Shown in pieces: positions 14,400 to 30,198 of a stretch of 39,721 nucleotides of DNA (position 1 is its first letter; each line of letters starts with the position of its first letter). Location of the stretch: NCBI GenBank assembly GCA_016180865.1, contig JACPAJ010000013.1:1-39721 (forward strand). Reading direction: 5' to 3'. This stretch comes from Deltaproteobacteria bacterium (GTDB lineage Bacteria; UBA10199; GCA-002796325; 1-14-0-20-49-13). A program made the position numbers and the translations under genes. Below the pieces are notes generated by a model, which had not been told where the DNA came from, ran no database searches, and saw nothing but the letters and a program-made list of their open reading frames with translations.

Positions 14400-16073
14400 A
14401 TGACAAAAGCACTGGAAGAAATTCTTTTAAGCGAAGGCTTGATCACAAAAGACAGGCTTGCTGTGGCAAAAGAATCTTTGAAAAATCTAGGCGGAACACT
14501 GGATCAGGTTTTAATCGAAAAAGGATTCTTAACCGAAGAGCAGATTTTAAAGGCCCTTGCCAAAAGAATGAACACTATTTTTGTAACGCTTTCCAAATAT
14601 AAAATCGATCCGGCGGCAGTAAGGCTTTTGAACGTTTCGCTGGCCAGAAAACACCGCGCGATACCGATTTTCAAGATAGAGGATAAAGTGACAGTCGCCA
14701 TATCGAACCCTCTTAATGTTTCGGCTCTTGATGACATTCGCGATGCAATCGGACATGAAATCAATCCTGTGCTAGCTCTGGATGCCGACATTGAAAAAGC
14801 GATAAAAGAATTCTACCGGGGCACAGGTTTAACGGAAGAGGGGGCGGTGGCAAAAGTGGAGGTGATAGGGTTTGAAGATAGAAGCGAAGAGTCAGTCTCA
14901 ATTGAAAAAATAGCGAAAGCGGCCAGCGGGGAGCAGATTGTTACGGCGGTAAATAATATAATAGCTCAGGCCGCGGCCGACCGCTCGAGCGATATTCATT
15001 TTGAGCCTGTGCGCGACGCCTTAAAAATCAGATTCAGAATCGACGGCGTTTTAGAGGATTTTTCCAGCCTCCCCAAAAAAATGCACATGCCGACCGTCTC
15101 CCGAATTAAAATTATGGGCGGGATGGATGTTGCGGAACACCGAATTCCGCAGGACGGCCGCGTGAGAGTCAGAACGCAGGGGCGCGAAATAGACATGCGC
15201 ATTGCGACATATCCGACGGTATTCGGAGAGGCGGCAACGGTCAGGCTTTTAGGCAAAGAAGAACTTTTAACTCTTGAAGATATAGGATTTTGCAAAAACG
15301 ATCTTAATGTTTTTATACAGCTTATAACCAAACCGCATGGAATTCTGCTTGTTACGGGGCCCACAGGCAGCGGCAAAACAACGACGCTATATGCGTCCCT
15401 TATGCATGTGAATTCAAGGGACAAGCATATTCTTTCAATTGAAGATCCGGTTGAAAACGAAATTCCGGGCATTGATCAGCAGCAGATAAATCCGAAAGCG
15501 GGCCTTACATTCGCCTCGGCCTTAAGATCGATGCTAAGACAGGATCCGGATATAATAATGGTCGGAGAAATCAGGGATAAAGAGACCGCGGATATGGCGA
15601 TCCGCGCTTCCATGACCGGCCATTTTGTTTTTTCAACGCTCCACACAAATACAGCCATAGGCGTCATACCGCGCCTTTTAGACCTTGGCGTGGAATCGTA
15701 TCTTCTTTCATCAACGCTGCTTGGCGCCATATCGCAGCGGCTTGTGAGAAAAATCTGCCCAAAGTGCAAAGAGGAAGCCGAGATCCCGCGCGAGCTTGCT
15801 GTGGGGCTCGGAGTTAAAAGCATAAAATCATTCAAGGGCAAAGGCTGCAAAGAATGCCGCAATACCGGATATTTCGGACGCACGGCGATTTTTGAAATTA
15901 TCCAGACAGATGATGATTTAAAAAAGATGATCAGCGAAAAAATGCCGGAAGTAAGGATTATGGAAGCCGTTAAAGATAAAGGGTATCATTCTATTCTCGA
16001 TGACGGACTGGAAAAAATTAAGAACGGCATAACAACCGTGGAAGAAGTCCTTAAAGTCACCGAAAGTTTGTAA
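14400..16073 (+). CDS. pilB: Type IV pilus / type II secretion assembly ATPase (PilB/MshE/GspE)
   Basis: 557 residues. An N-terminal MshEN domain (residues 1-150; relatives bind cyclic di-GMP) precedes the motor domain. Motifs include a Walker A GPTGSGKTTT near residue 320, an Asp box SIEDPVENEI, a Walker B DIIMVGEIRD, a His box STLHTNTA, and a zinc site with CPKC and CKEC pairs (about residues 453 and 484). All catalytic motifs look intact. It powers pilin polymerisation at the inner membrane face. It starts the assembly operon; GGGTG lies 5 bases before the ATG. The platform protein begins 5 bases after its stop. MSHA-type naming (mshE) would fit equally well. Confidence 0.95.
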   Translation: MTKALEEILLSEGLITKDRLAVAKESLKNLGGTLDQVLIEKGFLTEEQILKALAKRMNTIFVTLSKYKIDPAAVRLLNVSLARKHRAIPIFKIEDKVTVAISNPLNVSALDDIRDAIGHEINPVLALDADIEKAIKEFYRGTGLTEEGAVAKVEVIGFEDRSEESVSIEKIAKAASGEQIVTAVNNIIAQAAADRSSDIHFEPVRDALKIRFRIDGVLEDFSSLPKKMHMPTVSRIKIMGGMDVAEHRIPQDGRVRVRTQGREIDMRIATYPTVFGEAATVRLLGKEELLTLEDIGFCKNDLNVFIQLITKPHGILLVTGPTGSGKTTTLYASLMHVNSRDKHILSIEDPVENEIPGIDQQQINPKAGLTFASALRSMLRQDPDIIMVGEIRDKETADMAIRASMTGHFVFSTLHTNTAIGVIPRLLDLGVESYLLSSTLLGAISQRLVRKICPKCKEEAEIPRELAVGLGVKSIKSFKGKGCKECRNTGYFGRTAIFEIIQTDDDLKKMISEKMPEVRIMEAVKDKGYHSILDDGLEKIKNGITTVEEVLKVTESL

Positions 16074-16078
16074 AGTTT

Positions 16079-17185
16079 ATGCCCGTATTTTTATACAAGT
16101 CGCGCGATTCAAAAGGGACGCTCGTTTCAGGTGAAATGGAGGCCGCAAACGCCGACGATGTGAGAAGAAACCTTTCGGAAAAGGGGCTTCTTCCGACCCG
16201 TATCGAGCCAAAGGGCTTGTCGATATCCATCCCGCAATTTTTCAGGCAAAGATCAAAGGGAAAAGTCCGCGATCTAATAGCGCTAACGCGCCAGTTTTAT
16301 GCTCTGTTTAAGGCCGGCGTTAACATGGATAGAATTCTTTTCACCCTTGCGCGCCAAAGCGAAAATTCAAGATTGAGAATCGCTCTTGAAGAGATAAGAC
16401 GCGATGTTTCCAAAGGATCGGGCCTGGCAGCTGCTTTTGGAAAGCATCCGGATATTTTTAATGAATTATACGTAAATATGCTGAGCGTCGGCGAGACCGG
16501 AGGCGTATTGGAGCAGTCGCTTTTAAAACTGGTGGAAATTTTAAAAAAAGAACATAAACTTATCACAAGCGTTAAATCGGCCACTCTCTACCCAAAGATC
16601 GTCATTGTAGTGTTCTTTATGGTTGTGGCTTTAATGATTGTTTTTGTAATTCCGCGGTTTGCCGACTTTTACGCGGGATTTAAAGCGGAGCTTCCTTTGC
16701 CGACGCGGATTTTAATTGCCGTTAGCGATTTTGTGTCGGCGTACTGGTATTTTTTTCTGGCCGGAATTGCTTTCGGAACTGTTTTTGTAAGAAGGCTGAA
16801 AAATACATCGAAAGGAAATATTTTTTTCGATCGCCTTAGATTTAAAATTCCGGTCTTTGGAAAACTTCACCAGCTTGTTATCAATGCAAGGTTCGGCCAC
16901 CTTGTGGCGGCGATGTATAAAAGCGGTTTGCCGCTTGCAACGGCTTTGGATATAGTCGGCAGAACGATCGGCAATAAAGTTTTCCAGAAAGAGATCGAAG
17001 GCTTGAATGACGATGTTTCAAAGGGCTCTTCCTTGTCGGCTTCCATGGAGGCAAAGCCGTACTTCACGTTTCTAATGACTGAAACAACCGCTGTTGGCGA
17101 ACAGACGGGGTCTCTCGATGAAATGATGGAGACGACCGCGCAATTTTATGATGAAGAAATAGATGCCATGCTCGTCAATTGGTAA
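16079..17185 (+). CDS. pilC: Pilus platform protein PilC/MshG/GspF, reading frame broken near the C-terminus
   Basis: 368 residues as read, against about 405 for the family. The N-terminal T2SSF domain (IALTRQFYALFKAGV), membrane helices near residues 175-195 and 220-240, and a second T2SSF domain (HLVAAMYKSGLPLATAL) are all present. The frame ends at AMLVNW with TAA at 17183. The next frame continues without a stop into the conserved tail LVTLIEPMLL and the last transmembrane helix, ending at 17298. Adding one T in AATTGG (17177-17182) would restore a 406-residue protein. It is either a real one-base deletion, a sequencing error or programmed slippage. Without the tail the protein lacks its last membrane helix and probably would not assemble. 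Confidence 0.92.
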   Translation: MPVFLYKSRDSKGTLVSGEMEAANADDVRRNLSEKGLLPTRIEPKGLSISIPQFFRQRSKGKVRDLIALTRQFYALFKAGVNMDRILFTLARQSENSRLRIALEEIRRDVSKGSGLAAAFGKHPDIFNELYVNMLSVGETGGVLEQSLLKLVEILKKEHKLITSVKSATLYPKIVIVVFFMVVALMIVFVIPRFADFYAGFKAELPLPTRILIAVSDFVSAYWYFFLAGIAFGTVFVRRLKNTSKGNIFFDRLRFKIPVFGKLHQLVINARFGHLVAAMYKSGLPLATALDIVGRTIGNKVFQKEIEGLNDDVSKGSSLSASMEAKPYFTFLMTETTAVGEQTGSLDEMMETTAQFYDEEIDAMLVNW

Positions 17186-17335: not shown

Positions 17336-17358
17336 AATTGGGCTTATATATTATTGTT

Positions 17359-17724
17359 GTGAATAAAATAAGGCGTTATAAAAATGATTGGATTGTAATT
17401 GCCGGAATTTTATTGGTATTATCCTCAATTTATGGCACAATGATTTACGAACAAAGGATGAGGCTTCATGAAGAAGCGCTGATAAGCGAATTACGATCTT
17501 TGAGAATTGCGGTGGCAGCTTTTCATATTATTAACGGGAGAAATCCGAGGGATTTTAACGAGCTTTCGGCGGCGGTTATGAAAACAGCCGACAATAAAGA
17601 ACGCAGATTTCTTCCTTCAAATATTATAAAAAGAGATTTCATGGATGTGTTTGGCAACCCGTACGTTTATGATCCTTCGATTGGATGGGTTAGATGCACA
17701 ACGTCGGATTATAGTGATTGGTGA
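17359..17724 (+). CDS. Pseudopilin-like protein without a canonical prepilin peptidase site (paralogue 1)
   Basis: 121 residues from the GTG at 17359. A TTG at 17338 is an alternative, but GTG aligns with its paralogue at 18278. A short basic N-terminus (VNKIRRYKND) leads into one membrane helix (WIVIAGILLVLSSIYG), then a helix with ISELRSLRIAVAAF and a C-terminal domain MDVFGNPYVYDPSIGWV ending in YSDW. The C-terminal pattern D-x-FG-x-x-Y-x-Y is like major pseudopilins of the GspG type. The Gly-Phe-Thr-Leu-Ile-Glu cleavage site is absent, so it probably keeps its N-terminal anchor. It lies between the platform gene and the major pilin. Role unknown, perhaps a fibre-base or assembly factor. 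Confidence 0.7.
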   Translation: MNKIRRYKNDWIVIAGILLVLSSIYGTMIYEQRMRLHEEALISELRSLRIAVAAFHIINGRNPRDFNELSAAVMKTADNKERRFLPSNIIKRDFMDVFGNPYVYDPSIGWVRCTTSDYSDW

Positions 17725-17843: not shown

Positions 17844-18266
17844 ATGCGAAGAGAAAAAGGTTTTACATTAATTGAACTTGTGCTTGTCATTGCCGTACTG
17901 GGGGTTTTGGCCGTGTCGGCGCTGCCCAACCTTTTCGATATTTCATTGACGAACGCCAGAAATAATGCGCGAGACGGCGTAGTCGGCGCAGTTCAGGCCG
18001 GTCTTTCACTTTACGGAGCCAACCAAATTTCTCAAGGGAACACCGAATCGTATCCGACATTGCTTGAAACAAGCGATTTGGCCGATGGAACGGCTTCCAG
18101 CCGCACGAATCCGCTTTTCAATAATATCCTGCAGGGCGGCGTAACGCGCGATTGGACAAAAAAGAACGATACCTGTTACACCTATACCGGAGGAGGAGCG
18201 ACGGATGATTATCAGTATACCGCCGGAACGACGGGCACGTTTGTATTTGCCAGCGGCGGATGCTAA
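17844..18266 (+). CDS. Type IV pilin, probable major subunit
   Basis: 140 residues. A short basic leader MRREKG is followed by the canonical prepilin peptidase site G/FTLIELVLVIAVLGVLAV with Glu at +5. The mature protein has one long hydrophobic N-terminal helix and a small soluble domain. Its two cysteines, in KNDTCYTY and at the very C-terminus (SGGC), probably form the pilin disulfide loop. GGAGG lies 6 bases before the ATG and two strong hairpins precede it, which fits a highly expressed fibre subunit. MSHA-type or GspG-like. The processing peptidase is not in this window. Confidence 0.9.
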   Translation: MRREKGFTLIELVLVIAVLGVLAVSALPNLFDISLTNARNNARDGVVGAVQAGLSLYGANQISQGNTESYPTLLETSDLADGTASSRTNPLFNNILQGGVTRDWTKKNDTCYTYTGGGATDDYQYTAGTTGTFVFASGGC

Positions 18267-18277
18267 ACGAGGTGTTT

Positions 18278-18637
18278 ATGAAGAGATCCAAAATTGAAAT
18301 TTTTGCCGTTGTTGCGGTTGTAATCTTGGCAGTCGGAATTTTCGGCGTTAAATCATTTTTAATAAATAAGGCCGAAAAAGAGAATGCGCTCATGGCTGAA
18401 CTCAAGTCTTTGCGGACATCGGTTCAAATTTATCTTGTGCTGAATAAGAGCTATCCATCGGACCTGAAAAGCCTTGCCGGCCAAAAATTCGTTCTCGGCA
18501 ATAAAGAAGAATCCTACGTTAAGGGCATTAAACTTGATAGAGATGGATATCCGATAGATGTTTTCGGCCAAAAGTTTGATTATAACCCAAGAACGGGCTG
18601 GGTAAATTCTTCAGTAAAAAGATATTCAGAATGGTAA
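18278..18637 (+). CDS. Pseudopilin-like protein without a canonical prepilin peptidase site (paralogue 2)
   Basis: 119 residues from the ATG at 18278, preceded by ACGAGG; an earlier in-frame ATG at 18260 overlaps the pilin stop and is less likely. The N-terminus MKRSKIEIFAVVAVVILAVG is a signal anchor without the Gly/Phe-Glu site. The soluble part has MAELKSLRTSVQIYLVLNKS, then PIDVFGQKFDYNPRTGWV, ending in YSEW. It clearly aligns with the protein at 17359 (shared ELxSLR, DVFGxxxxYxP, GWV, terminal YSxW), so the two arose by duplication and now flank the main pilin. It overlaps the next gene by 7 bases. Confidence 0.75.
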   Translation: MKRSKIEIFAVVAVVILAVGIFGVKSFLINKAEKENALMAELKSLRTSVQIYLVLNKSYPSDLKSLAGQKFVLGNKEESYVKGIKLDRDGYPIDVFGQKFDYNPRTGWVNSSVKRYSEW

Positions 18638-19095
18638 AAGCTTTAAAGGGTTTTACCCTTATTGAAACGCTTTTAGTGATCGCTATTCTGGGAATTTTGT
18701 CTATAGCGCTCGTTACGCGCATATTTAATTATAAAAGATCCTATATTGAAGTAACGTCAAAGAAAGCCGCGAGCGATATTGAATATGCCAGAAGCCTTGC
18801 GATGATGAAACAGGGGACGACTTACGGGGTTTTTTTCGATGACGCCAATGATCGATATACGGTTTATGCAACAAGCACTGCAACTCCCGTTGCGGACCCC
18901 CAAACGAAGCAAAATCTTATTGAAACATTTTCAAGATGGCCCGGAGTTACGATTACCGGAGGCAATTTTACTGTTGAATTCAATCAATGGGGGTCTCCTA
19001 CGACAGGCGGCGGCGGAAGCGTGACGCTTACCGACGGCACAAACTCAAAGACGGTCACCATTACGGCAGGCACGGGGAAGGTGAGTGTGCAATAA
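18631..19095 (+). CDS. Minor pilin, GspH/FimT-like
   Basis: 154 residues. Leader MVKALKG then the prepilin peptidase site G/FTLIETLLVIAILGILSI with Glu at +5. Next come a helix (KKAASDIEYARSLAMMKQ) and a beta-rich domain typical of GspH/FimT minor pilins (TTYGVFF, RYTVYATS, NFTVEFNQWGSP). The first residues overlap the preceding gene by 7 bases, and the stop shares one base with the next start. It probably belongs to the complex that primes fibre assembly. Confidence 0.88.
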   Translation: MVKALKGFTLIETLLVIAILGILSIALVTRIFNYKRSYIEVTSKKAASDIEYARSLAMMKQGTTYGVFFDDANDRYTVYATSTATPVADPQTKQNLIETFSRWPGVTITGGNFTVEFNQWGSPTTGGGGSVTLTDGTNSKTVTITAGTGKVSVQ

Positions 19096-19529
19096 TGTTC
19101 AAGCAACAAGCAACTAGCAAGGGTGTGACGTTGATCGAGGCAGTTCTAATGATCGGCATTGTCGGGGCCGGTCTCATTGGAATAGCTTATACAATGTTCG
19201 GCGGCCCCAAATCCGCTCTGATAGCCGACCAGACAGTTGTTGCAGCCCATTTGGCCCGTGAAAAGATGGAACAGATCCTTGCGGACAGGGCAAATAACGG
19301 TTACGCAACGACAATTGCCACAAGTTATTCCGATGGCGCATTAACCGGCAATTACAGCATTTATACGAGAAACGTTACGATTACGGAAGTTGATTCAGAT
19401 GCTGACGGCGGCAGCGACGATTTTCTGGATGCTTTAGCCGGTTCAGGATACGCCAGAGTAACTACGACTGTAACATGGAACAGCGGAAACAACACCGTAA
19501 AAGAGGAGATGCTGATTGCAAATTATTAG
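19095..19529 (+). CDS. Minor pilin, GspI/PilV-like
   Basis: 144 residues from the ATG at 19095, whose A is the last base of the preceding stop. The cleavage site KG/VTLIEAVLMIGIVGAG carries Glu at +5, with Val instead of Phe at +1. The helix continues through AAHLAREKMEQILADR, a pattern seen in GspI/PilV proteins, followed by a beta domain (YSIYTRNVTITEV, ARVTTTVTWNSG). It overlaps the next gene by 14 bases. Probably part of the minor-pilin priming complex. Confidence 0.85.
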   Translation: MFKQQATSKGVTLIEAVLMIGIVGAGLIGIAYTMFGGPKSALIADQTVVAAHLAREKMEQILADRANNGYATTIATSYSDGALTGNYSIYTRNVTITEVDSDADGGSDDFLDALAGSGYARVTTTVTWNSGNNTVKEEMLIANY

Positions 19530-20034
19530 AGCCCATTTGCGGCGCGGCGGATTTACGCTTGTAGAACTTGTTTTGTCTATTGCTATCATTGCGATTCTTG
19601 CTGCAAGCGTCGGGCCGATTTTAACGACAAGTTTCAGAGGCTATGATCTTGTTGCAAAAAGACGGATAGCGCTGGCCCAAATCAGAATAGCGCTGGACAG
19701 AATGTGCGGTGAAATTGCTCTTATTCCGGACACAGCCAATATTGTCACATTTACCTCTACAAATTTCACATTTAATATTCCGAGCGAAAGCAATGTTGCA
19801 TATACAACAAGCGGAAGCACTCTTACACGTAGCGGCGTGAATCTGGCCGATAATGTAACTTCGCTCGCATTTACTTATCTTGATTCGGCCGGCAATTCAA
19901 CGGCGACAAAGGCAAATATAAAAAGGATAAAAGTTGAAGCGTCGGTTACAGCAGGTGCCGGCATGGGAACGTTAAATATAAGGGATCAAGTTTTTCCGCG
20001 GAGGTTTGCAAGCGCTTATGCAGGGTATCAGTAA
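19516..20034 (+). CDS. Minor pilin, GspJ/PilW-like
   Basis: 172 residues with a TTG start at 19516; GAGGAG lies 7 bases upstream and no better start precedes the cleavage site. Leader MQIIRAHLRRGG then G/FTLVELVLSIAIIAILAAS with Glu at +5. The helix extends through RIALAQIRIALDRMCGEIA, as in GspJ/PilW. The C-terminal domain is beta-rich (VTSLAFTYLDSAG, IKRIKVEASVTAG). It overlaps the large repeat-domain pilin by 17 bases from that gene's ATG. Probably a tip-complex subunit. Confidence 0.82.
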   Translation: MQIIRAHLRRGGFTLVELVLSIAIIAILAASVGPILTTSFRGYDLVAKRRIALAQIRIALDRMCGEIALIPDTANIVTFTSTNFTFNIPSESNVAYTTSGSTLTRSGVNLADNVTSLAFTYLDSAGNSTATKANIKRIKVEASVTAGAGMGTLNIRDQVFPRRFASAYAGYQ

Positions 20035-22270
20035 ATATAAGGGCCAAAACGGAGTAACCGTCATCGCAGCGCTTGTTGCGGTATTTTTCATCGGCGCTGT
20101 CGGCGCGGGAATGGCATATTTTGTCGCGTCCAATCAGCAGACCCGGATACAGCAGGTGACGCGCGATCAGGCTCTTTATTCAAACATGGCCGGGATGGAA
20201 TTTGCGCTGCGCCAGATTATGGTCAGCGGCTCGCAGGCAACTTCTATCACGCGGAAATTTGTCGGCGAAACCATAACAATAACTCGCTCAAGCGGAGCGA
20301 TAAACGTTTCAACGGCAAAAAAGGACGCGTTTTCTTCTCATTCGATCACAGACCCGAATCCCCCGAATCTTGCAAATTGCCTTGTTATAAATACCGCTGC
20401 CGCCGCCGTAACCGACCAGAATCCTGGAGATAAGCACAGGCTTACCGGCATAACTCTAAGCCGCGATGCGAGCTGCACGGATGCGCTTACAATCAACTCC
20501 ATGAGCACAACTACATGGGCGCCCGATAACGGAGAGCTTTTAAATGCGATTGAAATTGCCGGTTCGCCGACCGAATTCAGCGGCCCGGCGGCGGGAAGCG
20601 GCGGAACGTTTGATTTCGGTTCGAATGATTATGCTATTAATGATGCCGCAACGCATAATCTCACATATGTCCAGTGGAATTCCGACATGAGCGGCCACAA
20701 TTTCCATCTTGTTTTTAACTTTACGATAAATGCCCAGACTTTCAGCAAATCGGCCGATGTCAATTTTTTGGCCGCGAATCAGGCCGGATGTTTCAGCTGG
20801 ACTACGACAAGCGCAAGGCTTTCATTTACTTCCAACGCGTGGCGCGATCTTATAAACACAAGCATTGCAAACTCCTGCGCGCAGCCGATAAGGCTTGATA
20901 AGATGACAGTTTCATGGACTCCGACAACGCCTTCGCGAAATCTTACGAATGTCCAGCTCAACGGCGGCTCGGAAGAGTTCACCGGTACGGCCGCAAGCGG
21001 AGTTCAAATTGAAGTCGATGATCTTATATCGGCATCTTCGTCTCAAACTGTCAATTATTTCAGATTTGACGGCGATATGCTGGGGCGGAATTATAGCGTT
21101 GTTTGGACATTTGCCGACGGAACGTCAACGACGCTATCTTTAAATCTTTTTAATGCAAATGAAAATAATTGTTTAACAATTAATACCGCCAATGTCGCGG
21201 TTTCCGGAAATGATGTTACCGGGCTTACCGTCCAAAATATCTGCAGCGCCGATATAGGAATGACTTCGGCAACGATGACGTGGAGCGGAGGGCCGGCAAA
21301 TTTCACGGCTATTTCAATCGACGATGTTGACGGCACAAATACCTATTCCGGAACTTTTGCAAGCGGCGCGGCGCTTGATTTTGCAACTGTAGATGCCGTT
21401 GACGGCAATCTGTATTATCCGGACGGAAGCGGAGTGAAAAATATAAATTCGCTTAGTTTCAGCTCCACTCCCGCCGGAACAACGTTTACTATTACGTTTA
21501 CAATGGCCGACGGTACGACTAAAGCCGCTACATTTACGCCTCAAACGCAGGCAAATTGTTTGAGCGTGAATATGCTCGGCAGTTCGCTTACAAACGGCAG
21601 CAAAGACCTTAGCGGGATAACAACTACCAATAATTGCAGCTTTCCAATCACATGGGCGCAGACAACGGTCACTACATCTTCGACGCGCAATTTGACGCAG
21701 ATAGTTGCCGATGGCGTAACTATTTTCAGCGGTAGCGCTGGCAGCGGCGTAACGGTCGACAACACGGATGTTGTTTATTCAGCATCGCAAACTGTTTCAA
21801 TCGACAGATTCAGGTTCAGCGGGAGCGTGGCCAATCGCGTCATAACGATAGATTTCATAATGGGAGATGGCTCGACTCAAACGGCTGAATTTTCAGAAAA
21901 ATTCTGCCTTGTGCCGAATACATCTGCAGCCACAATCGGCGGCACGGGAGGCGTCGATCTTTTGGGAATTACGATTAATAACCAATGCACCGCGCGTTCG
22001 ATCATTTGGATCACCACGGTTGCCAGTTGGACGCCGACGTCGCCTACAAGAAATTTAACGTCGATAGTCGTTGACGGTTCGTCTGTTTTCAGCGGTTCGA
22101 TGGCATCCGGCGGCACAACGAATAATTCCAACGTTACGCTGACAGCCGGTCAAACAAGGGCAATTACAAGATTTCGCTTCAGCGGAGATATGACCGGCAG
22201 AACGTTTACAATCACATTTAATATGCAGGACACATCGAGCGACACAACGCCGTCTTTCACGCCGCCGTAA
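20018..22270 (+). CDS. Giant GspK/PilX-like minor pilin with five tandem Cys-paired beta-domains
   Basis: 750 residues from the ATG at 20018, with GGAGG at 20000-20004; a TTG at 20006 is an alternative but sits too close to that site. The N-terminus is pilin-like (GQNG/VTVIAALVAVFF, then a long helix to about residue 70) but has Ala at +5 in place of Glu, as in GspK. From residue 121 come five repeats of 116-137 residues. Each starts with Cys and has a second Cys 24-32 residues later: 121/153, 258/287, 385/409, 514/540, 630/657. These are the only ten cysteines. Shared motifs include SWTPT-x-PSRNLT, FSG-x-x-ASG and FRF-x-GDM-x-GR. The repeats look like Ig-type beta-sandwiches. Probably a pilus-tip adhesin. 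Confidence 0.82.
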   Translation: MQGISKYKGQNGVTVIAALVAVFFIGAVGAGMAYFVASNQQTRIQQVTRDQALYSNMAGMEFALRQIMVSGSQATSITRKFVGETITITRSSGAINVSTAKKDAFSSHSITDPNPPNLANCLVINTAAAAVTDQNPGDKHRLTGITLSRDASCTDALTINSMSTTTWAPDNGELLNAIEIAGSPTEFSGPAAGSGGTFDFGSNDYAINDAATHNLTYVQWNSDMSGHNFHLVFNFTINAQTFSKSADVNFLAANQAGCFSWTTTSARLSFTSNAWRDLINTSIANSCAQPIRLDKMTVSWTPTTPSRNLTNVQLNGGSEEFTGTAASGVQIEVDDLISASSSQTVNYFRFDGDMLGRNYSVVWTFADGTSTTLSLNLFNANENNCLTINTANVAVSGNDVTGLTVQNICSADIGMTSATMTWSGGPANFTAISIDDVDGTNTYSGTFASGAALDFATVDAVDGNLYYPDGSGVKNINSLSFSSTPAGTTFTITFTMADGTTKAATFTPQTQANCLSVNMLGSSLTNGSKDLSGITTTNNCSFPITWAQTTVTTSSTRNLTQIVADGVTIFSGSAGSGVTVDNTDVVYSASQTVSIDRFRFSGSVANRVITIDFIMGDGSTQTAEFSEKFCLVPNTSAATIGGTGGVDLLGITINNQCTARSIIWITTVASWTPTSPTRNLTSIVVDGSSVFSGSMASGGTTNNSNVTLTAGQTRAITRFRFSGDMTGRTFTITFNMQDTSSDTTPSFTPP

Positions 22271-22323: not shown

Positions 22324-23868
22324 ATGAAACAACGAGTGAAACGCAAGCCGGCATCAGAAAAACTTAAAAAACCGATCGCCAAGGATAAAGATATAACCGT
22401 CCTTAATCAGACTTTATTGAATACCATCCCCTTTCCAATGGATATTGTGGACGATACAGGAACGATTCTTTACATGAGCGAATTAATGCAAAAAATGGCT
22501 GGTAAAAATGGCGCCGGCAAAAAATGCTGGCTGCTTTACAGGGATGATAAAGTCAGGTGTCCCGCATGCCCTCTTGAAACGGGAATAACCGTCGGAGAAA
22601 CGAAAACCATAGATGTGGGAAGCTGCTTTGGAGGAAAGCAGATGGAGGTTACTCACACCGGGATGATCTATAAAAGCAAAAAAGTGATTCTTGAAATTTT
22701 TTACGATATAACCGAAAGAAAAAAAGCCGATGAAGTTTTGAAAAATATCAGGGAAAAACTTGAAGAGAAAAATTTTGAATTAAAGCGGCTAAATGAAGTC
22801 AAATCCGAATTTGTGGCGACAGTTTCGCATGAGCTCAGAACTCCTTTGGCTTCGATCAAAGAAGCCATTTCGCTTATTTTGGACGGAGTGTCAGGGGAAA
22901 CTAACGAAAAACAGCGCAACTTTTTAAGCATCGCCAACAGAAATATCGACCGGCTTACCGGTTTAATCAACAATCTTCTCGATATTTCTAAAATCGAAAC
23001 CGGCAAGCTCAAGCTTTATAAAACGAATTTTTTGATGATGGATGTTATAAAAGAGGTTATCGATTCATTCAAACATCTTGCAGAGAATAAGAGAATTAAC
23101 CTGCGGCTGATCGAGAAAACCGACCTTCCGTCTGTATATGCGGACAAAGACAAGATAACGCAGATAATTATCAATCTCCTTTCAAATGCTTTAAAATTCA
23201 CGCCTGAAGGCGGTTTTGTGGAAGTTTCGACAGATTATACAAAATCGGATAAGGAATTCGTTGAAGTTGAAGTTAAAGATTCCGGAATGGGCATCGCCGA
23301 AGATGACATGCCAAAGCTTTTCCATAAATTCCAGCAGATCGACGGATCGATAACCCGCAAAATCGGCGGAACGGGCCTGGGGCTGGCCATCTCAAGGGAA
23401 ATTATCGAAATGCACGAAGGCAGAATCTGGGCGGCGTCTGAACTGGGCAAGGGGAGCCGCTTTGGGTTCATTCTGCCGGTTATTCCAATGGGGAAGATTA
23501 AAGTCGATAAAAAGAGGATTTTGATAATTGACGATGACCCCGATCTTTGCGAAACTCTAAAAACAAGGCTTGAAGCCAATGAATTTATCGTATTTACGGC
23601 TTTAAACGGGATGGACGGAATTGAACTGGCAAAGAAAAACAGGCCGAATCTTATTATTTTGGATTTAATGATGCCGGAAATGGATGGTTTTCAAGTTTGC
23701 CAGTCATTAATGAAAGACAGCCAGACATCTTCCATCCCCGTGGTGGTGTTGACTGTCCTTGATCAGGAGGAGGCAATACGAAAAGCCTTGTGTAAAGGCG
23801 CGGTAGGATATATGATTAAGCCATACGATTCCGAATCGCTGCTGGAAACAGTCAGGGAGTTTTTATGA
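22324..23868 (+). CDS. Cytoplasmic PAS hybrid histidine kinase with C-terminal receiver
   Basis: 514 residues, no membrane helix. The PAS domain (about residues 25-130) contains CWLLYRDDKVRCPACP, a Cys-rich loop (C-x11-C-x2-C) that could bind a metal or sense redox. A short coiled coil follows, then H-box VSHELRTPLASI (His169), N-box QIIINLLSNALKF, G1 VKDSGMGI, F-box LFHKFQQIDGS, G2 GGTGLGLAISR, and a receiver starting ILIIDDDPD with phospho-Asp in LIILDLMMPEMDG and Lys in YMIKPYD. The gene is followed by two single-domain receivers with ATGA overlaps, forming a phosphorelay set placed between the two pilus blocks. It may control pilus expression or motility; that is inferred from position. 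Confidence 0.93.
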   Translation: MKQRVKRKPASEKLKKPIAKDKDITVLNQTLLNTIPFPMDIVDDTGTILYMSELMQKMAGKNGAGKKCWLLYRDDKVRCPACPLETGITVGETKTIDVGSCFGGKQMEVTHTGMIYKSKKVILEIFYDITERKKADEVLKNIREKLEEKNFELKRLNEVKSEFVATVSHELRTPLASIKEAISLILDGVSGETNEKQRNFLSIANRNIDRLTGLINNLLDISKIETGKLKLYKTNFLMMDVIKEVIDSFKHLAENKRINLRLIEKTDLPSVYADKDKITQIIINLLSNALKFTPEGGFVEVSTDYTKSDKEFVEVEVKDSGMGIAEDDMPKLFHKFQQIDGSITRKIGGTGLGLAISREIIEMHEGRIWAASELGKGSRFGFILPVIPMGKIKVDKKRILIIDDDPDLCETLKTRLEANEFIVFTALNGMDGIELAKKNRPNLIILDLMMPEMDGFQVCQSLMKDSQTSSIPVVVLTVLDQEEAIRKALCKGAVGYMIKPYDSESLLETVREFL

Positions 23869-24230
23869 CAAAAAAAATATTGATTGTGGATGACGAGAAG
23901 GATCTGGTTGAAACCCTTTCCTTCAGGCTGGAAGCCGCCGGTTATGCTATTATCACCGCTTTTGACGGGAAAGAAGGTCTGGAAAAAGCGCGTTCCGAAA
24001 AGCCGGATATCGTGCTTTTGGACATCATGATGCCCAAGATGGATGGCTATCAGGTTTGCAGGATGTTGAAATTCGATGACGAATATAAGCATATGCCGAT
24101 AATCATGCTTACCGCGCGGGGGCAGGAGCAGGATAAAAAGACGGGAGAAAACGTCGGAGCGGACGATTACGTCACAAAACCTTTTGACAGCGGGGACCTT
24201 CTCACGCGCATTAAAAAGCTTTTAAAATGA
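23865..24230 (+). CDS. Single-domain response regulator
   Basis: 121 residues, receiver domain only. Acidic pocket LIVDDEKD, phospho-Asp in IVLLDIMMPKMDG, Thr in MLTARG and Lys in YVTKPFD are all present. The start overlaps the kinase stop (ATGA), and its own stop overlaps the next start in the same way. With no output domain it must act by protein contact, as a CheY-like regulator or as a relay intermediate for the kinase at 22324. Confidence 0.93.
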   Translation: MTKKILIVDDEKDLVETLSFRLEAAGYAIITAFDGKEGLEKARSEKPDIVLLDIMMPKMDGYQVCRMLKFDDEYKHMPIIMLTARGQEQDKKTGENVGADDYVTKPFDSGDLLTRIKKLLK

Positions 24231-24613
24231 AGTACGAAATTTTAATAGCGGACGATGATCGCGACTTTGTCACGGTTCTGAAGGAGCGTCTTGAATCAAG
24301 CGGCTTTATAACAGATTGCGCCTACGAAGGCGTCAGGACTATCGAGCTGGCCCATAAGAAAAAACCCGATTTGATTTTGCTGGACTGGAAAATGCCCGCA
24401 GGCGGCGCATCTACGGTTTTACAGTATTTGAAGGAGAAGCCGGAAACGAAAAACATCCCCGTTATTGTTATTACCGGAGTCGCCGATAATTTTTTGGAGT
24501 CTAAAGCGGCGTCATTGGGGGCCAAATATTTTATACGAAAACCGTACGATCCTCATCTGCTCATCGACACAATAAACGAAATCCTGGCTTTAAGAACCGA
24601 AAAATCAAAATAG
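24227..24613 (+). CDS. Single-domain response regulator
   Basis: 128 residues, receiver only. It has ILIADDDRD, phospho-Asp in LILLDWKMPAGG, Thr in VITGVAD and Lys in FIRKPYD, so it should be phosphorylatable. The Trp after the phospho-Asp and the Gly-rich loop differ from the neighbouring receiver, so the two probably contact different partners. ATGA overlap with the upstream receiver. A 46-base gap separates it from the MshM-like ATPase. Confidence 0.92.
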   Translation: MKYEILIADDDRDFVTVLKERLESSGFITDCAYEGVRTIELAHKKKPDLILLDWKMPAGGASTVLQYLKEKPETKNIPVIVITGVADNFLESKAASLGAKYFIRKPYDPHLLIDTINEILALRTEKSK

Positions 24614-24659: not shown

Positions 24660-25535
24660 ATGTATCTTGAGTATTTTAATTTTACTGATGAGCCGTTTAA
24701 AATAACGCCGGATTCAAAATATCTTTATCTGTCCCGCCAGCACGAGGAGGTTTTGCAAGCGCTCCTTTACGGCATTACACAGCGCAAAGGCTTTATGGCT
24801 GTAATCGGAGACATCGGAACCGGAAAGACAACCATAAGCCGCGCGCTTTTAAACAGGCTTGATAAATCGATCGATACATCCATTATTTTAAATCCGATGC
24901 TTTCCGTTCAGGAGCTGCTGGAGGCCATTAACGACGATTTTGGAAATGCGGCAGCTACGAGAGATACGGTTAAGGGGCAGATAGATGCGCTGAATGAATT
25001 CATGCTGCGCCGCCTACGCTTCAATAAAAATGCGATTGTGATGATAGATGAAGCGCAGCATTTGAGCGTTGAATCCATGGAGATGCTGAGGCTGCTGTCA
25101 AATCTGGAGACCGAAGATAAAAAGCTGATGCAGATAATTTTTCTGGGGCAGAAAGAGCTTGAAACAAAATTGAAATCGCCGGAACTCCGCCAGCTCGACC
25201 AGAGAATAGGCATTCGCTATTTTCTGGGGCCGCTGAATTACACCGAGACGTGCAATTATATTGTTCACAGGATAACAATGGCCGGAGGCGGGGGCGGCAG
25301 CATTCAGCTTGAAGAGCGGGGGTTGAGGAAAATTTTTGAATATTCAAAGGGAGTGCCGCGCAGGGTCAATATGATTTGCGACAGAAGCCTGCTGGAAGCT
25401 TTTGCACAGAGAAGCAAGCTTGTTACCAGCGGGATTGTAAAAGCCGCTATTCGCGACATTGAAGGCCTCTCAAACCCGAGCGGAGTCGCATTTTCCGGCA
25501 GAAAAAAAGTTTGGGAATTCTGGAAGTGGTTTTAA
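24660..25535 (+). CDS. mshM: MshM/ExeA (GspA)-type AAA ATPase
   Basis: 291 residues. It starts with MYLEYFNFTDEPFKITPDSKYLYLS, highly typical of the ExeA/MshM family (residues 1-25, named here in part). Walker A is GDIGTGKTT, Walker B AIVMIDEAQHLS, and a sensor region GVPRRVNMICDRSLLEAF follows. Relatives help to insert or assemble the secretin through peptidoglycan and work with a GspB/MshN partner, which is encoded next, 15 bases downstream. No Shine-Dalgarno precedes the ATG; a weak TTAACA / TACTTT pair (24624, 24646) would give a nearly leaderless transcript. It starts the second pilus block. Confidence 0.88.
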   Translation: MYLEYFNFTDEPFKITPDSKYLYLSRQHEEVLQALLYGITQRKGFMAVIGDIGTGKTTISRALLNRLDKSIDTSIILNPMLSVQELLEAINDDFGNAAATRDTVKGQIDALNEFMLRRLRFNKNAIVMIDEAQHLSVESMEMLRLLSNLETEDKKLMQIIFLGQKELETKLKSPELRQLDQRIGIRYFLGPLNYTETCNYIVHRITMAGGGGGSIQLEERGLRKIFEYSKGVPRRVNMICDRSLLEAFAQRSKLVTSGIVKAAIRDIEGLSNPSGVAFSGRKKVWEFWKWF

Positions 25536-25550
25536 AAATCAGGGGGATAA

Positions 25551-26336
25551 ATGTCCGTAATTTTAAAAGCTCTCAAAAGCCAGGAGAGAGAATCAAATAA
25601 TATCAGCAAGTCGCCGTTAATTATTCCAGAAGGCGAAGGTTTTTTTAAAGGCAGGCAGTCGATGGTTAAAAAAGATCCTTACGTCTCCAAAAAAAGGATT
25701 TATGTTTTAAGCGTTCTTTTTGCCGCTGCGGTTATTTTTGCAGTTGCTCTTCAGTGGGTGAAAAACAGGCCGGCCGAGCCTGAGTCTGCAAAACAACCGG
25801 CTGTTGCTCATGCGGTTGAAAATTCAAATCAAACCGCACTGGCTGTTCAAGCGGAAACAAGCGAGGCTGTTCCGGCAGACATAGTTGAACGGGCAAATGC
25901 AGCTTTTGCCGGCGGAGATTATGAAACCGCAGTGAAATTGTTTAAGGAAGCAATCGCGAAAGATCAAAACAATGCAATGCTTCATAATAATTTAGGGCTT
26001 ATATTTGTAAAAAAAGAGCTCTATTCCAGCGCGGAAGATGAGTATAAAAAAGCGCTTGAATCTGACGATAAGTGCGCGGAATGTTTTAATAATTTTGGAT
26101 ATCTGAAATCGATATTGGGAGAATCGTTTGAGGCGAGGAAATATTTTGAAAAGGCATCGGTGTTATTAGCATCGTACGCAGATCCGTATTTTAACCTGGC
26201 GGTCTTATCCGAAAAAGAAGGGGACATAGGCAATGCCGTTAAATATTACAGGCAGTTCATCGAGCTCTATCCGAATAAAAGCGATACGCTCTATTCTAAA
26301 GTCAACAAACGGGTAATTGAACTTGCCGGGAAATAG
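25551..26336 (+). CDS. MshN/GspB-like TPR pilus assembly protein
   Basis: 261 residues. The N-terminus MSVILKALKSQE is the signature of GspB/MshN proteins. One membrane helix (about residues 49-66, YVLSVLFAAAVIFAVAL) is followed by an Ala-rich linker and at least three TPR units (AFAGGDYETAVKLFKEA; LHNNLGLIFVKKELYSSA; DPYFNLAVLSEKEGDIGNA). It is probably inner-membrane anchored with the TPR part in the periplasm, pairing with the MshM-like ATPase and aiding secretin assembly. GGGGG lies 6 bases before the ATG. Two bases separate it from pilM. Confidence 0.83.
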   Translation: MSVILKALKSQERESNNISKSPLIIPEGEGFFKGRQSMVKKDPYVSKKRIYVLSVLFAAAVIFAVALQWVKNRPAEPESAKQPAVAHAVENSNQTALAVQAETSEAVPADIVERANAAFAGGDYETAVKLFKEAIAKDQNNAMLHNNLGLIFVKKELYSSAEDEYKKALESDDKCAECFNNFGYLKSILGESFEARKYFEKASVLLASYADPYFNLAVLSEKEGDIGNAVKYYRQFIELYPNKSDTLYSKVNKRVIELAGK

Positions 26337-26338
26337 TT

Positions 26339-27346
26339 ATGGCTAAGATTTCATTAGGGGTCGACATAGGCTCTGAAGATATAAAAGTAGTATGCCTGGA
26401 AAAAAATGAAGAAAGTTATAAGCTGAATTCTTACGGCCATTTCAGGTTCGGCGGCGACGAAGAGGCTTTAAAAAGATTTGTGCAGGAAGCAAAGCTTCCG
26501 AAGGGCGATGTAAGAATAAATATTGAAGACAGCTCTTTAAAAATAAGAAGGCTTGATCTGCCGACCATGACCGAAGAGGAATTTAATGAGGCCGTTCGCT
26601 GGGGGATGAAGGATATTGTTGAAGGGGATATTAACGATTTTATCTTTCGCTGTTCAAAAATAGATCCGACGGATCTGAGCCTTGAAAATAAAATTCCGAT
26701 GCTGGTTTTTGCAATCAAGGCCGATACGGTGTCTGGCAGGCGCAGTTTTGCTAAGCGCATAGGCTTTAAAATCCCAAGCATTATAGAACCCAATGCAGGT
26801 GCTCTGGCATGTCTTTTTGATGCGCTGAAGGGAAAAGAAAGAGACTCTTCAAAAGCGGTTGTTGATTTAGGGAGGGTCTTTTCGCCTTTTATCGTTATCG
26901 GGAAAAAAGGGCTGGTTTTTTCCAGGCCGATGAACGGCTGCAGCGAAATTAATTTTATCGGCCAGCTTGCGCGGGACTTAGGCATAGGCTCAAAAGAGGC
27001 GGAAGATTTAAAGCAAAAATTTTTTGGAGGAGGAAAAATAAGCGGAGAAATTGAGACAAGGCTTAAAAATTCCGTGACGCAGTTTTATTCAAAAATGGCC
27101 GTTGAAATTCAGCGGTCTATTGACGGGTATAATCTTGTTTTCGGCAGGCAGAAAGTCGATGAAATTTTTCTTTGCGGAAACGGCGCGTACAGCAAAGGGC
27201 TGATTGGTTATCTTAATCAGACTCTTGGCGTTAAAACGGGCATATTGGATCCGTTCGAATTTGCCGATACGCGAGAATTCAGCCCTGGGCCGTTTGACGG
27301 CAAACGGGCTCTTTTTGCGGTTGCTTGCGGGCTTGCGGTTGATTGA
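26339..27346 (+). CDS. pilM: PilM, actin-like pilus assembly protein
   Basis: 335 residues. Actin-fold ATPase of the inner-membrane alignment complex, cytoplasmic. It starts LGVDIGSEDIKVVCLE (phosphate-1 loop), then VRINIEDSSLKIRRLDLP, EAVRWGMKDIV, the second phosphate motif KAVVDLGRVFSPFIV, and a late EIFLCGNGAYSKGLIGYL segment. In MSHA systems this role is often fused with PilN as MshI; here the two are separate genes, as in classic type IVa pili. The next gene, pilN, starts 15 bases later. Confidence 0.9.
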   Translation: MAKISLGVDIGSEDIKVVCLEKNEESYKLNSYGHFRFGGDEEALKRFVQEAKLPKGDVRINIEDSSLKIRRLDLPTMTEEEFNEAVRWGMKDIVEGDINDFIFRCSKIDPTDLSLENKIPMLVFAIKADTVSGRRSFAKRIGFKIPSIIEPNAGALACLFDALKGKERDSSKAVVDLGRVFSPFIVIGKKGLVFSRPMNGCSEINFIGQLARDLGIGSKEAEDLKQKFFGGGKISGEIETRLKNSVTQFYSKMAVEIQRSIDGYNLVFGRQKVDEIFLCGNGAYSKGLIGYLNQTLGVKTGILDPFEFADTREFSPGPFDGKRALFAVACGLAVD

Positions 27347-27361
27347 TTCGGCGCAAATTTT

Positions 27362-27898
27362 ATGCATATTAACTTTGAAACAAAGAGAAATGTGTTTGAA
27401 ATGATTCTGTTGAAGGGGCTTGAAGTTAATAGGCTGCTGATGGTTTTTTTCGTTATCGGTGTAATTATGCTGATGGTTTTATTCGGCCTGGTTCAAAAAT
27501 TCCGCCTCGATTATCTTGGGGCAAAAAGAATAAAAATGGAACATCAGGTGATAGAATTGCGCAAAGGAACGCCCCTTGAAAATCTTTCGATAGCAAGCAG
27601 CGCAGGCAAGGATCAGATATTTATAAATTATGAAGAAAAAATCATCTGGTCGGATATTCTTAAAGAACTTTCGGTTTACTGCCCTGAAAATGTGCAAGTT
27701 ACGCAGTTTAAAAGTACTAGTTCCGGCCGGACAGTTAACATAGGCGGCGACGCGCCGGATCAGGCGAGCGTTGCCGATTTTGTAAAAGCCCTTCAGGGAA
27801 GCGGAACTTTTAAGGACGTTAAACTTTTGTCCTCAACATCCGTTCAGGCTGAGGGCGGGAGCACGAGGATCGTTTACAGCATTGCAAGCACAATATGA
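27362..27898 (+). CDS. pilN: PilN-like pilus assembly protein
   Basis: 178 residues. The short cytoplasmic N-terminus MHINFETKRNVF replaces the classic INLLP motif that docks on PilM. One membrane helix (about residues 28-46, LLMVFFVIGVIMLMVLFGL) is followed by a coiled coil and a ferredoxin-like periplasmic domain (WSDILKELSVYCPENVQVTQ and ASVADFVKALQGSGTFKDV). It overlaps the next gene by 4 bases (ATGA). Position and topology make the call firm even though sequence signatures are weak. Confidence 0.82.
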   Translation: MHINFETKRNVFEMILLKGLEVNRLLMVFFVIGVIMLMVLFGLVQKFRLDYLGAKRIKMEHQVIELRKGTPLENLSIASSAGKDQIFINYEEKIIWSDILKELSVYCPENVQVTQFKSTSSGRTVNIGGDAPDQASVADFVKALQGSGTFKDVKLLSSTSVQAEGGSTRIVYSIASTI

Positions 27899-28473
27899 AC
27901 ATTCATCTATCAAGCGTTGACTGGCAGCAGCGCCCCAACAGGCGCGAAAAAATCATATTTGCCTGTTCCGTTCTCATATTTTTTGCGGTTTTTTTAAAAT
28001 CATGCTGGTATCCGAGCAACAAAGCCATTGGGGTTGCAAAATCGGAATTGAAAGGCATTATCGAAGAAAAAATAGCCTTGGAAAGAAACGCCGGGTTGTT
28101 GCAGGACACAGATGCGAAAGGCAAGCTCTGGACGGGAACCCCCGATGAAAGGGTCGCCTATATTAAAATGGCCCAGAGAGTAAGCGAATCGCCGAATGTT
28201 GTTCTGATGAAAGAATTTTCCAACCCTGCGCTTTTGCGGGATGTGAAACTGTCAAACATAGATTTTCCGGACCAAAAAAATGAAAGCGGAATGATAAAGC
28301 AGCAGTGGAAAATCAATGTCAACGGAGCGTTTGTATCGGTAGGTAAATATATTGAGAGATTAGAAGGCTTGCCAATGCTTTTATTTATTGATAATATAAC
28401 GTTCAATTCGGCAAACGATCCGTTTGGGCGCGTTAATGCCGAGGTTGAAGGAACCGTTTATGGCTGGAAATAA
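27895..28473 (+). CDS. pilO: PilO-like pilus assembly protein
   Basis: 192 residues. One N-terminal membrane helix (about residues 21-38), a coiled coil (KSELKGIIEEKIALERNAG), then a periplasmic domain with KINVNGAFVSVGKYIERLEGLP, which matches the conserved ferredoxin-like fold of PilO/MshJ, and LLFIDNITF near the end. It pairs with PilN to link PilM to PilP and the secretin. It overlaps pilN by 4 bases and pilP by 14 bases. Confidence 0.82.
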   Translation: MNIHLSSVDWQQRPNRREKIIFACSVLIFFAVFLKSCWYPSNKAIGVAKSELKGIIEEKIALERNAGLLQDTDAKGKLWTGTPDERVAYIKMAQRVSESPNVVLMKEFSNPALLRDVKLSNIDFPDQKNESGMIKQQWKINVNGAFVSVGKYIERLEGLPMLLFIDNITFNSANDPFGRVNAEVEGTVYGWK

Positions 28474-28831
28474 TTTATTCAGATTATCGTTTGCGGTGCT
28501 TGTCCTTGCTTTTGCGCTTTCAGCTTCTGCAGAGCAGGGGAAAAAGGCGCTTTCAGGCCTGAATATAGAGGAATTTGAGCAGAAAAAGGAGAGGCCGACC
28601 GACTGGAGCAAGAATCCTTTTGTCATTCCAGCGGCGGATGTGGCGGTAAGCGAATTAAAACTTTCGGGAATCGTTTACAGTGAAAAGGAATCCGCAGCGA
28701 TTGTAAGCGATAATATCGTTAAAATCGGCGATAAAATAGGATCGAACGAAGTTGTTGCAATAGAAAAGATGAGAGTTGTTATAAGAAACGAAAACGGCCT
28801 TTTTGGAATTGCCCTTAGCGGAGGGAAATGA
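28460..28831 (+). CDS. pilP: PilP/MshK-like secretin-coupling protein
   Basis: 123 residues from the ATG at 28460. N-terminal signal peptide (LFRLSFAVLVLAFALSASA) with no lipobox cysteine, a linker with TDWSKNPFVIP, then the HR-like beta domain LKLSGIVYSEKESAAIVSD and KIGDKIGSNEVVAIEKMRV. That domain is typical of GspC/PilP/MshK proteins that contact the N0 domain of the secretin. It overlaps both neighbours (14 and 4 bases). Confidence 0.8.
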   Translation: MAGNNLFRLSFAVLVLAFALSASAEQGKKALSGLNIEEFEQKKERPTDWSKNPFVIPAADVAVSELKLSGIVYSEKESAAIVSDNIVKIGDKIGSNEVVAIEKMRVVIRNENGLFGIALSGGK

Positions 28832-30198
28832 AGAAATTTATAATATTTTGCCTGCTGATGCTGTCGTGCGACCTCTGGTCTTATGAAAGGCTTTTCAGCG
28901 TCGAGTTTCGCGATGCCGATATCAAGAGCGTTCTAAGGCTCTTGGCAAAGATGGACGACCGGAATATCGTTGTTCCCGACAAAATTGAAGGAAAAGTAAC
29001 CGCCAGTTTTGAAAACATAGGATTATATGATGCGCTTGACGCTGTTTTAAAAACGCACGGCTATGGCGTGATTGAAGAAAATAATATCCTGCAGGTCCTT
29101 TCAAAGGACGAAATGCAGTCTTTAGGCGAAGATCTTCAGCAGGCGACATTCATTCTGCAGTATGCAAAAGCTTCGGACATCCTTCCGCAAATACAGGCGT
29201 TAATCACATCGCGCGGTTCCGCAGTTGCGGATGAAAGGACAAATACGATTTTCGTGAGAGATTCAAATGCCGCCGTTAACAACATAAGAGGGCTTGTCGC
29301 AAATATCGATAAAAAAGACAGCCAGGTGCTGATCGAAGCTAAAATAATCGAAGCGAGCCTGGATTTTATAAGAAGCCTTGGCGTGCAGTGGGGCGTCACG
29401 AAATCAGGCGGAAAAATCCAGACAGCGGGAGTTGAGGCCGTGGGAACCGCCGATAGCGGAAGAACTCTGATGCTGAATTCTCCGGCCGTTGGATTGAATT
29501 CCGGCGCGCCTTTGGGCGGTGTTGGAATGATTTTGGGGAGTTTCCGCGGGACGCTTACGGATGTGCAGCTGACAACCGCCGAACAGAAAGGGGATGTCAG
29601 CATTCTTTCAAGGCCGTCCGTTACGACAATCAATAATCATTCCGCATCTATCAGAAGCGGAGCCAAATTCTACGTCAAAACAAGCGGCAACGTAACGATC
29701 GGCGGAACAACAGGCGCTGCGGTTTCGACAGGCACAAATCTGCAGCAAATCGTTACGGGGATAGAATTGAAGGTGACGCCGCAGATTTCAATGGACGAAT
29801 TTATCAAGCTTGATATCGCAGCAACCGAATCCGAGGCGGATTTTACAAAAGCAATTGAGGGAATACCGGCAGTCCTTGATAATACAGCCACGACAACCGT
29901 TATGCTTAAAAACGGCGAAACAACAATTATCGGCGGACTTTTCCGCGTGCGCGATGCGAAAACCATTAAAGGGATTCCGGGACTCATGAAAATTCCGATT
30001 TTAGGAAATCTATTCAAGAGCAAGTCAAAAACTAAAGCCAGGAGCGAGCTGCTGATATTTATCACTCCTAAGATTATAGAATCTACTCTTTCAAGCCTTC
30101 CTCATTATGAGGAGCCGGACAGCATGTATTATACAGAGCCCATTTTAAATCCCGAACGAAAAGAGAAGAAGAAACGCAAATTCCGATTCAAGTATTAA
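28828..30198 (+). CDS. Secretin (PilQ/MshL), outer-membrane pilus pore
   Basis: 456 residues, short for a PilQ and close to MshL. Signal peptide MKKFIIFCLLMLSC with a possible lipobox (LMLSC). An N0/STN-like domain follows (FSVEFRDADIKSVLRLLAK), then one N1-type domain (ATFILQYAKASDILPQI; DERTNTIFVRDS). The secretin domain has VLIEAKIIEASLDF, SILSRPSVTTINN, GIELKVTPQIS, MLKNGETTIIGGLFR and PGLMKIPILGNLF, and ends in SELLIFITPKI. All core motifs are present. No AMIN domain. It starts by overlapping pilP (ATGA) and closes the pilus block. Confidence 0.93.
   Translation: MKKFIIFCLLMLSCDLWSYERLFSVEFRDADIKSVLRLLAKMDDRNIVVPDKIEGKVTASFENIGLYDALDAVLKTHGYGVIEENNILQVLSKDEMQSLGEDLQQATFILQYAKASDILPQIQALITSRGSAVADERTNTIFVRDSNAAVNNIRGLVANIDKKDSQVLIEAKIIEASLDFIRSLGVQWGVTKSGGKIQTAGVEAVGTADSGRTLMLNSPAVGLNSGAPLGGVGMILGSFRGTLTDVQLTTAEQKGDVSILSRPSVTTINNHSASIRSGAKFYVKTSGNVTIGGTTGAAVSTGTNLQQIVTGIELKVTPQISMDEFIKLDIAATESEADFTKAIEGIPAVLDNTATTTVMLKNGETTIIGGLFRVRDAKTIKGIPGLMKIPILGNLFKSKSKTKARSELLIFITPKIIESTLSSLPHYEEPDSMYYTEPILNPERKEKKKRKFRFKY

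Follow-up and report, generated by a model that had tools for sequence, protein, structure and literature searches.

A minor pilin of the K slot with five tandem predicted beta-sandwich domains: a candidate tip arm of a type IV filament

The stretch of DNA analysed here (39 721 nucleotides, hereafter the window) carries a complete type IV filament operon on its + strand, in which the last gene of the H-I-J-K set of minor pilins encodes a protein of 750 residues with five tandem domains. We established the gene, its repeats, their predicted fold, the operon slot and the variation in copy number; peptidase processing, assembly, tip location, disulfides and adhesion of the protein we infer. It appears to be an oversized form of the subunit expected to cap a type IV pilus, and a tip-displayed arm is its best reading because of the K slot, the K sequence and what reviews state on the tip complex. 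Indeed, this complex is described as capped by a subunit without Glu5 (PMC10191384), namely K in the case of the HIJK complex (PMC9934059), and modular pilins are known to display adhesive modules (PMC10191384, PMC9934059, PMC10628169), as with PilB and PilC of Streptococcus sanguinis, adhesins modelled at the tip (PMC9934059, PMC10628169, PMC8179133).

The filament operon and the K gene

The genes of the operon are as follows, with the basis of each assignment in brackets:
14400–16073, +: extension ATPase with T2SSE and MshEN domains (Pfam/NCBIfam profiles)
16079–17185, +: platform protein, GspF/PilC family (profile matches)
17338–17724, +: T2SSG-like small protein without prepilin motif (below the Pfam cut-off)
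17844–18266, +: probable major pilin, GFTLIEL, N_methyl (profile matches)
18260–18637, +: second T2SSG-like small protein (below cut-off)
18631–19095, +: H-type minor pilin, GspH, N_methyl (profile match)
19095–19529, +: I-type minor pilin, KGVTLIEAV (position and sequence)
19516–20034, +: J-type minor pilin, GGFTLVELV (ORF, profile, synteny)
20018–22270, +: K-slot minor pilin, 750 aa (ORF analysis, repeat comparison, family alignment)
22324–24613, between the K and AAA genes: histidine kinase with receiver domain, and two receiver proteins
24660–25535, +: ExeA/MshM-like AAA ATPase (profile matches)
25551–26336, +: TPR protein in an MshN-like position (operon annotation)
26339–28831, +: PilM, PilN, PilO (26339–28473) and a small conserved protein (28424–28831) (annotation, synteny)
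28828–30198, +: secretin (profile matches)

The major pilin gene lies between those of the two T2SSG-like proteins, neither of which has a prepilin cleavage motif; several relatives show the same arrangement. Most relatives with a window-type operon have the AAA gene directly after K, without the kinase/receiver insert; similar receivers were observed at other operon edges in some of them (L022, L028, L041).

The K reading frame opens with an ATG at 20018, preceded 13 nt upstream by GGAGG, and closes with a stop at 22270; it overlaps the upstream J-type gene by 17 nt. The frame and its five tandem repeats stand as first described. Within the protein, the following parts were delineated:
20018–20053, +: class III (prepilin) leader MQGISKYKGQNG (sequence)
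20054–20350, +: pilin moiety, predicted helix (about residues 14–69) and four-stranded beta-meander (75–111) (AlphaFold2 full-length model)
20348–20758, +: repeat D1, 137 aa, Cys 121 and 153 (repeat comparison, domain tree)
20759–21139, +: repeat D2, 127 aa, Cys 258 and 287 (repeat comparison, domain tree)
21140–21526, +: repeat D3, 129 aa, Cys 385 and 409 (repeat comparison, domain tree)
21527–21874, +: repeat D4, 116 aa, Cys 514 and 540, sister to D5 (repeat comparison, domain tree)
21875–22267, +: repeat D5, 131 aa, Cys 630 and 657 (repeat comparison, model, domain tree)

The N-terminus has the form of a class III signal peptide with a hydrophobic helix: a short leader up to Gly12 is followed by VTVIAALVAVFFIGAVGAGMAYFVA. 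Cleavage is expected after Gly12 and would leave a mature pilin of about 77 kDa (pI 4.5) that begins with VTVIAALV, without Glu5: the +5 residue is Ala in the window protein and A, G or F in 19 members of the K family, none of them with Glu. Neither Pfam, N_methyl included, nor NCBIfam gave a significant match to the window protein, which the PilX_N and GspK family models also leave unmatched; PilX_N matches six of 19 K relatives, with a best E of 0.0075. The preliminary description had recognised a GspK/PilX-like pilin N-terminus, and the slot after H, I and J, the missing Glu5 and the weak PilX_N matches of some relatives support a K-type pilin. We regard its identity as the K subunit as very likely.

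The five repeats

All five repeats are related, as the ten pairwise comparisons score between 6.3 and 23.8 standard deviations above shuffled sequences. Protein identity among them is only 23–43%, and residues common to two repeats are often encoded by different codons, which together make an assembly duplication artefact implausible. The protein has exactly ten cysteines, two in each repeat of 116–137 residues, as had been noted, spaced by 32, 29, 24, 26 and 27 residues from D1 to D5. The shared motifs proposed alongside proved to belong to some repeats only: a PSRNLT-like motif occurs in D2, D4 and D5, and FRF-x-GDM-x-GR is complete in D2 and D5, being degenerate or absent in D1, D3 and D4.

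That the cysteines are paired, as initially suggested, agrees with their behaviour in 51 repeat domains, where both are present in 47, both absent in two and one absent in two, i.e. the two are kept or lost jointly in 49 (Fisher p 0.005, uncorrected for relatedness). This supports one disulfide per domain, probably, in a genome that encodes DsbA-family proteins. The one-cysteine exceptions are two paralogues of genome G003, each with a cysteine in the pilin part (NPCDPL) that could serve as the disulfide partner. These paralogues are adjacent single-domain K genes (L028:10557–12063), both without the first cysteine of the pair.

Predicted fold

When modelled from D5 and 13 repeats of the window and its two nearest relatives, D5 alone is predicted to be nearly all strand, with a mean pLDDT of 96.7. 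In an AlphaFold2 model of the full-length protein, based on three sequences, the part following the N-terminal helix is nearly all beta, and D2–D5 form separate units, mostly with pLDDT of 80–93 except for part of D3; confidence is low for residues 1–74, mostly below 50. The structure prediction thus agrees with the expectation that the repeats are separate beta domains. From the strand content of D5 and its beta-sandwich neighbours, the repeat is predicted with high confidence to be a compact beta-sandwich. 'Ig-like', the term first applied to it, holds as a description of such a sandwich, but no homology to immunoglobulin families was found. Matches to immunoglobulin light chains obtained with one repeat profile (A3, E about 0.01) vanished with a larger one (A6).

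Searches of Pfam, NCBIfam and PDB sequences with the repeats returned chance-level matches only. By structure, the best PDB neighbours of D5 in Foldseek are beta-sandwich proteins, with TM scores up to about 0.5; a viral fold search gave nothing significant, and Foldseek with the full-length model retrieved just generic multi-domain beta proteins, with TM below 0.2. The first 50 PDB neighbours of D5 include six chains of archaeal pilins, archaellins, FlaF or FlaG (8fk7, 5tfy, 4p94, 5tuh twice, 6pbk), at TM of about 0.4–0.5 and Foldseek E no better than 0.004. Among the 51 domains scanned, just two, both free of cysteines, match PF01917 (Arch_flagellin), over nearly the whole domain and with E of 0.0011 and 0.0098, the best score (19.8 bits) lying below the cut-off of 29.5. 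It seems rather unlikely that the K head domain is a true relative of the archaellin/archaeal-pilin/FlaF-FlaG beta-sandwich that became fused to a PilX-type helix of bacterial origin before its multiplication, and we treat the archaellin relationship as a lead only; if true, a building block of archaeal filament shafts would act in bacteria as an arm at the pilus tip.

Distribution and evolution of the array

The sample consisted of 46 genomes of the class, that is, the whole phylum as sampled. With the N-terminus and first domain as query, the K family was found in 32 of the 46, and a domain-only search detected the repeat domain in 28, every match lying in a K-type pilin. In three further phyla (30, 291 and 40 genomes), where a positive control was absent, no repeat domain was found. 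The K slot with H, I and J is kept in the operons seen, usually ahead of the AAA-TPR-PilM-PilN-PilO-secretin block.

The common K form has one domain and 230–290 residues, often about 240. Multi-domain forms occur in six genomes, with five domains in the window protein, four in G012 (MGRJ01000020.1, Deltaproteobacteria bacterium RIFCSPHIGHO2_02_FULL_40_28) and G041 (JAHJDR010000263.1, a marine MAG), and three in G011, G027 and G037. Genomes such as G012 and G041 may belong to the candidate phylum UBA10199. The two closest relatives were retrieved by a second contig scan (profile A2), the first having given no match. One K gene, in G001 (L086:2499–3283), is broken by a stop or frameshift into 169 + 96 residues, possibly because it is a pseudogene or was misassembled.

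The 51 repeat domains were placed in a maximum-likelihood tree, in which every domain from the second onwards belongs to one supported group (100/99) and the window D1 joins the first or only head domains of other K pilins. D1 clusters with D1, D2 with D2 and D3 with D3 even when the genomes belong to different families. As the domains cluster by position in distant genomes, the array is of early origin and was maintained position by position; the differing codons of shared residues likewise point to old duplications. The window D4 and D5 are sisters (96/84), the product of a lineage-specific duplication by which the window lineage gained a copy. The single domains of G003 fall within the D1 group of the proteins with four or five domains (96/94); this suggests that G003 lost the array, a likely event whose alternative would be separate gains.

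The expansion and contraction that the preliminary description had predicted for an adhesin are therefore seen in number (one, three, four or five repeats) but not in pace, as the repeats are orthologous by position. Hypervariable, recently duplicated repeats were rejected on the same ground, together with the identity of 23–43% and the often different codons. Apart from the D4/D5 duplication and the likely loss in G003, the array is thus old and fairly stable, which a structural arm would explain as readily as an adhesin.

Function of the array

In the mechanism that we propose, K would belong to the complex of the minor pilins H-I-J-K, which initiates a T4aP/MSHA-type filament and forms its cap. 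The prepilin peptidase would remove its 12-residue leader, and its helix would pack on the H, I and J subunits; because K lacks Glu5, no subunit would sit above it and its C-terminal head would point outward. Tandem duplication of the ancestral head domain would have produced five beta-sandwich domains, probably with one disulfide each, forming an arm at the fibre tip that would reach out and bind a surface or a partner, as PilY1 does in other diderms. Outward display of the array seems likely to us. We hold the complete reading, in which a modular K pilin caps the tip and its array is an outward arm that binds, to be moderately probable. No known binding motif or lectin fold was found in the window protein. 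As for PilY1 (PF05567), no match exceeded the cut-off in the 46 genomes, an absence that rests on an unvalidated search, since 14 control genomes were likewise without a match.

The array could also be a passive stalk or stop that binds nothing itself, either keeping the last domain, or a partner that binds at the tip, at a distance from the shaft, or corking the secretin when the filament is short. Old, conserved domains that are orthologous by position are what would be expected of a structural arm, and a cork role has been proposed for the Myxococcus tip complex (PMC7541494). However, syntenic systems have a single domain, which implies that length is not needed for assembly, and the unrelated modules carried by other K pilins of the phylum (see below) fit ligand display better than a fixed stop. 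We thus hold a purely passive array to be unlikely.

These K pilins show a subunit usually treated as a conserved part of the assembly in use as a platform for exchangeable modules, and this across a phylum whose genomes have no detectable PilY1. The occurrence of the same subunit with one, three, four and five domains constitutes a natural series bearing on the mass that the tip complex and the secretin tolerate, and useful for asking whether tip reach changes attachment.

The filament system

The preferred reading assumes a pilus, and the profile scores were weighed against a second possibility, namely that the filament is a type II secretion pseudopilus whose K array interacts in the periplasm with proteins to be secreted. 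The H-I-J-K layout would suit a pseudopilus, as would the GspE/GspF-like scores: the window ATPase scores between the GspE and PilB models, under the cut-offs of both. It carries the MshEN Pfam domain and reaches 37.5 bits for the MshE-type c-di-GMP motif NF053729 (cut-off 38). Also in favour of a pseudopilus, PilT, found over cut-off in 33 of the 46 genomes, is missing at that threshold from the window genome (84% complete) and from G003 (99% complete), which has the same operon type. Against a pseudopilus, the operon encodes PilM, PilN and PilO rather than GspL, GspM and GspC, and its secretin scores closest to the cut-off for PilQ (278 versus 284 bits), being far below that for GspD (232 versus 351 bits). 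Moreover, the window genome has on contig C136 a second ATPase that exceeds the GspE cut-off (727 versus 630 bits), so that type II secretion would already be accounted for by a probable separate T2SS. A pseudopilus appears improbable, and the system is best described as T4aP/MSHA-like, with the secretin and ATPase matches all under their cut-offs.

The window-type filament may lack a retraction motor of its own. The window genome and G003 both carry the K-type operon without PilT over cut-off, and most other K-family genomes have PilT.

Lastly, the protein might be a modular pilin distributed along the filament or retained in the membrane. Some non-core minor pilins do lie along filaments (PMC10191384), and the PilX_N and GspK models fail to match the window protein, but we consider this reading quite improbable given the slot with H, I and J in syntenic operons and the consistent absence of Glu5 in the K family.

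Comparison with known systems

The grafting of modules on pilins is a known principle (PMC8179133): a survey in 2021 counted more than 1200 modular pilins with 264 architectures (PMC8179133). Tandem copies of a module as such are not new either, because a modular pilin of 860 residues with 12 copies of IPR013211 had already been reported (PMC8179133). Judging from the databases searched, the new features are a domain family to which neither Pfam and NCBIfam nor PDB sequences gave a match, its confinement within one phylum to the K slot, and a copy number graded 1-3-4-5.

Like the window protein, PilB and PilC of S. sanguinis combine a short pilin moiety with extra C-terminal modules, and in PilC an Ig-like fold precedes the lectin, with a tip position proposed (PMC9934059, PMC10628169, PMC8179133). 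The K module differs from these in being an uncatalogued domain, present in one to five copies and located in K of a diderm HIJK set. GspK and PilX share with the window protein the last place in H-I-J-K, the absence of Glu5 and a size larger than that of other minor pilins. However, GspK has an alpha-domain inserted in its pilin sheet (PMC8179133), an arrangement not found in the full-length model, which predicts instead a C-terminal chain of beta domains. The PilY1/PilC tip adhesin, proposed as the outermost modular element of the tip (PMC10191384, PMC7541494), is comparable to K in this proposed role but, unlike K, is not a pilin.

The MSHA pilus resembles the window operon in having an ATPase with MshEN domain, an MshM-like AAA protein and a TPR protein. 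Its putative adhesin is MshQ (PMC7096442), whereas in the window operon the candidate is part of a pilin, and the MshL model stays far below cut-off (127 versus 250 bits). In the T4b pilus of ETEC, CofB is a large tip minor pilin with beta-repeat and beta-sandwich domains (PMC8179133); T4b systems, however, are without the HIJK set (PMC10191384), and the window repeats have no PDB sequence match.

Other K modules and additional H-I-J-K sets

Other modules also occupy the C-terminal position of K pilins. A different one, of about 180 residues, is common to 11 K proteins from eight genomes (G004, G008, G009, G012, G023, G039, G041, G044); its loci are L038, L077, L078, L079, L080, L081, L082, L083 and L090, and it is repeated in L079. 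One of these 11, at L077:7867–10932, a K pilin of 1022 residues with 80 cysteines, also bears 11 DUF4215 repeats between the head domain and another, C-terminal module. Apart from DUF4215, a Pfam search of the other K modules gave no match.

In G011 and G037, two H-I-J-K sets share one operon, with a one-domain and a three-domain K. These paired sets resemble the situation in Myxococcus, whose three minor-pilin/PilY1 clusters are believed to confer different properties on the tips (PMC7541494). The window genome itself has a stand-alone set with a single-domain K on contig C71 (L027:9186–11295), adjoining lipB-, CDP-alcohol phosphotransferase-, HflX-type GTPase- and dnaE-like housekeeping genes; this set is possibly an alternative tip for the same filament. 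Its J and I proteins cluster with their counterparts from the same family (G001, G002), whereas the window J falls with G041, G003 and G012; the AAA gene of the window operon clusters with G041 and G003, not G002.
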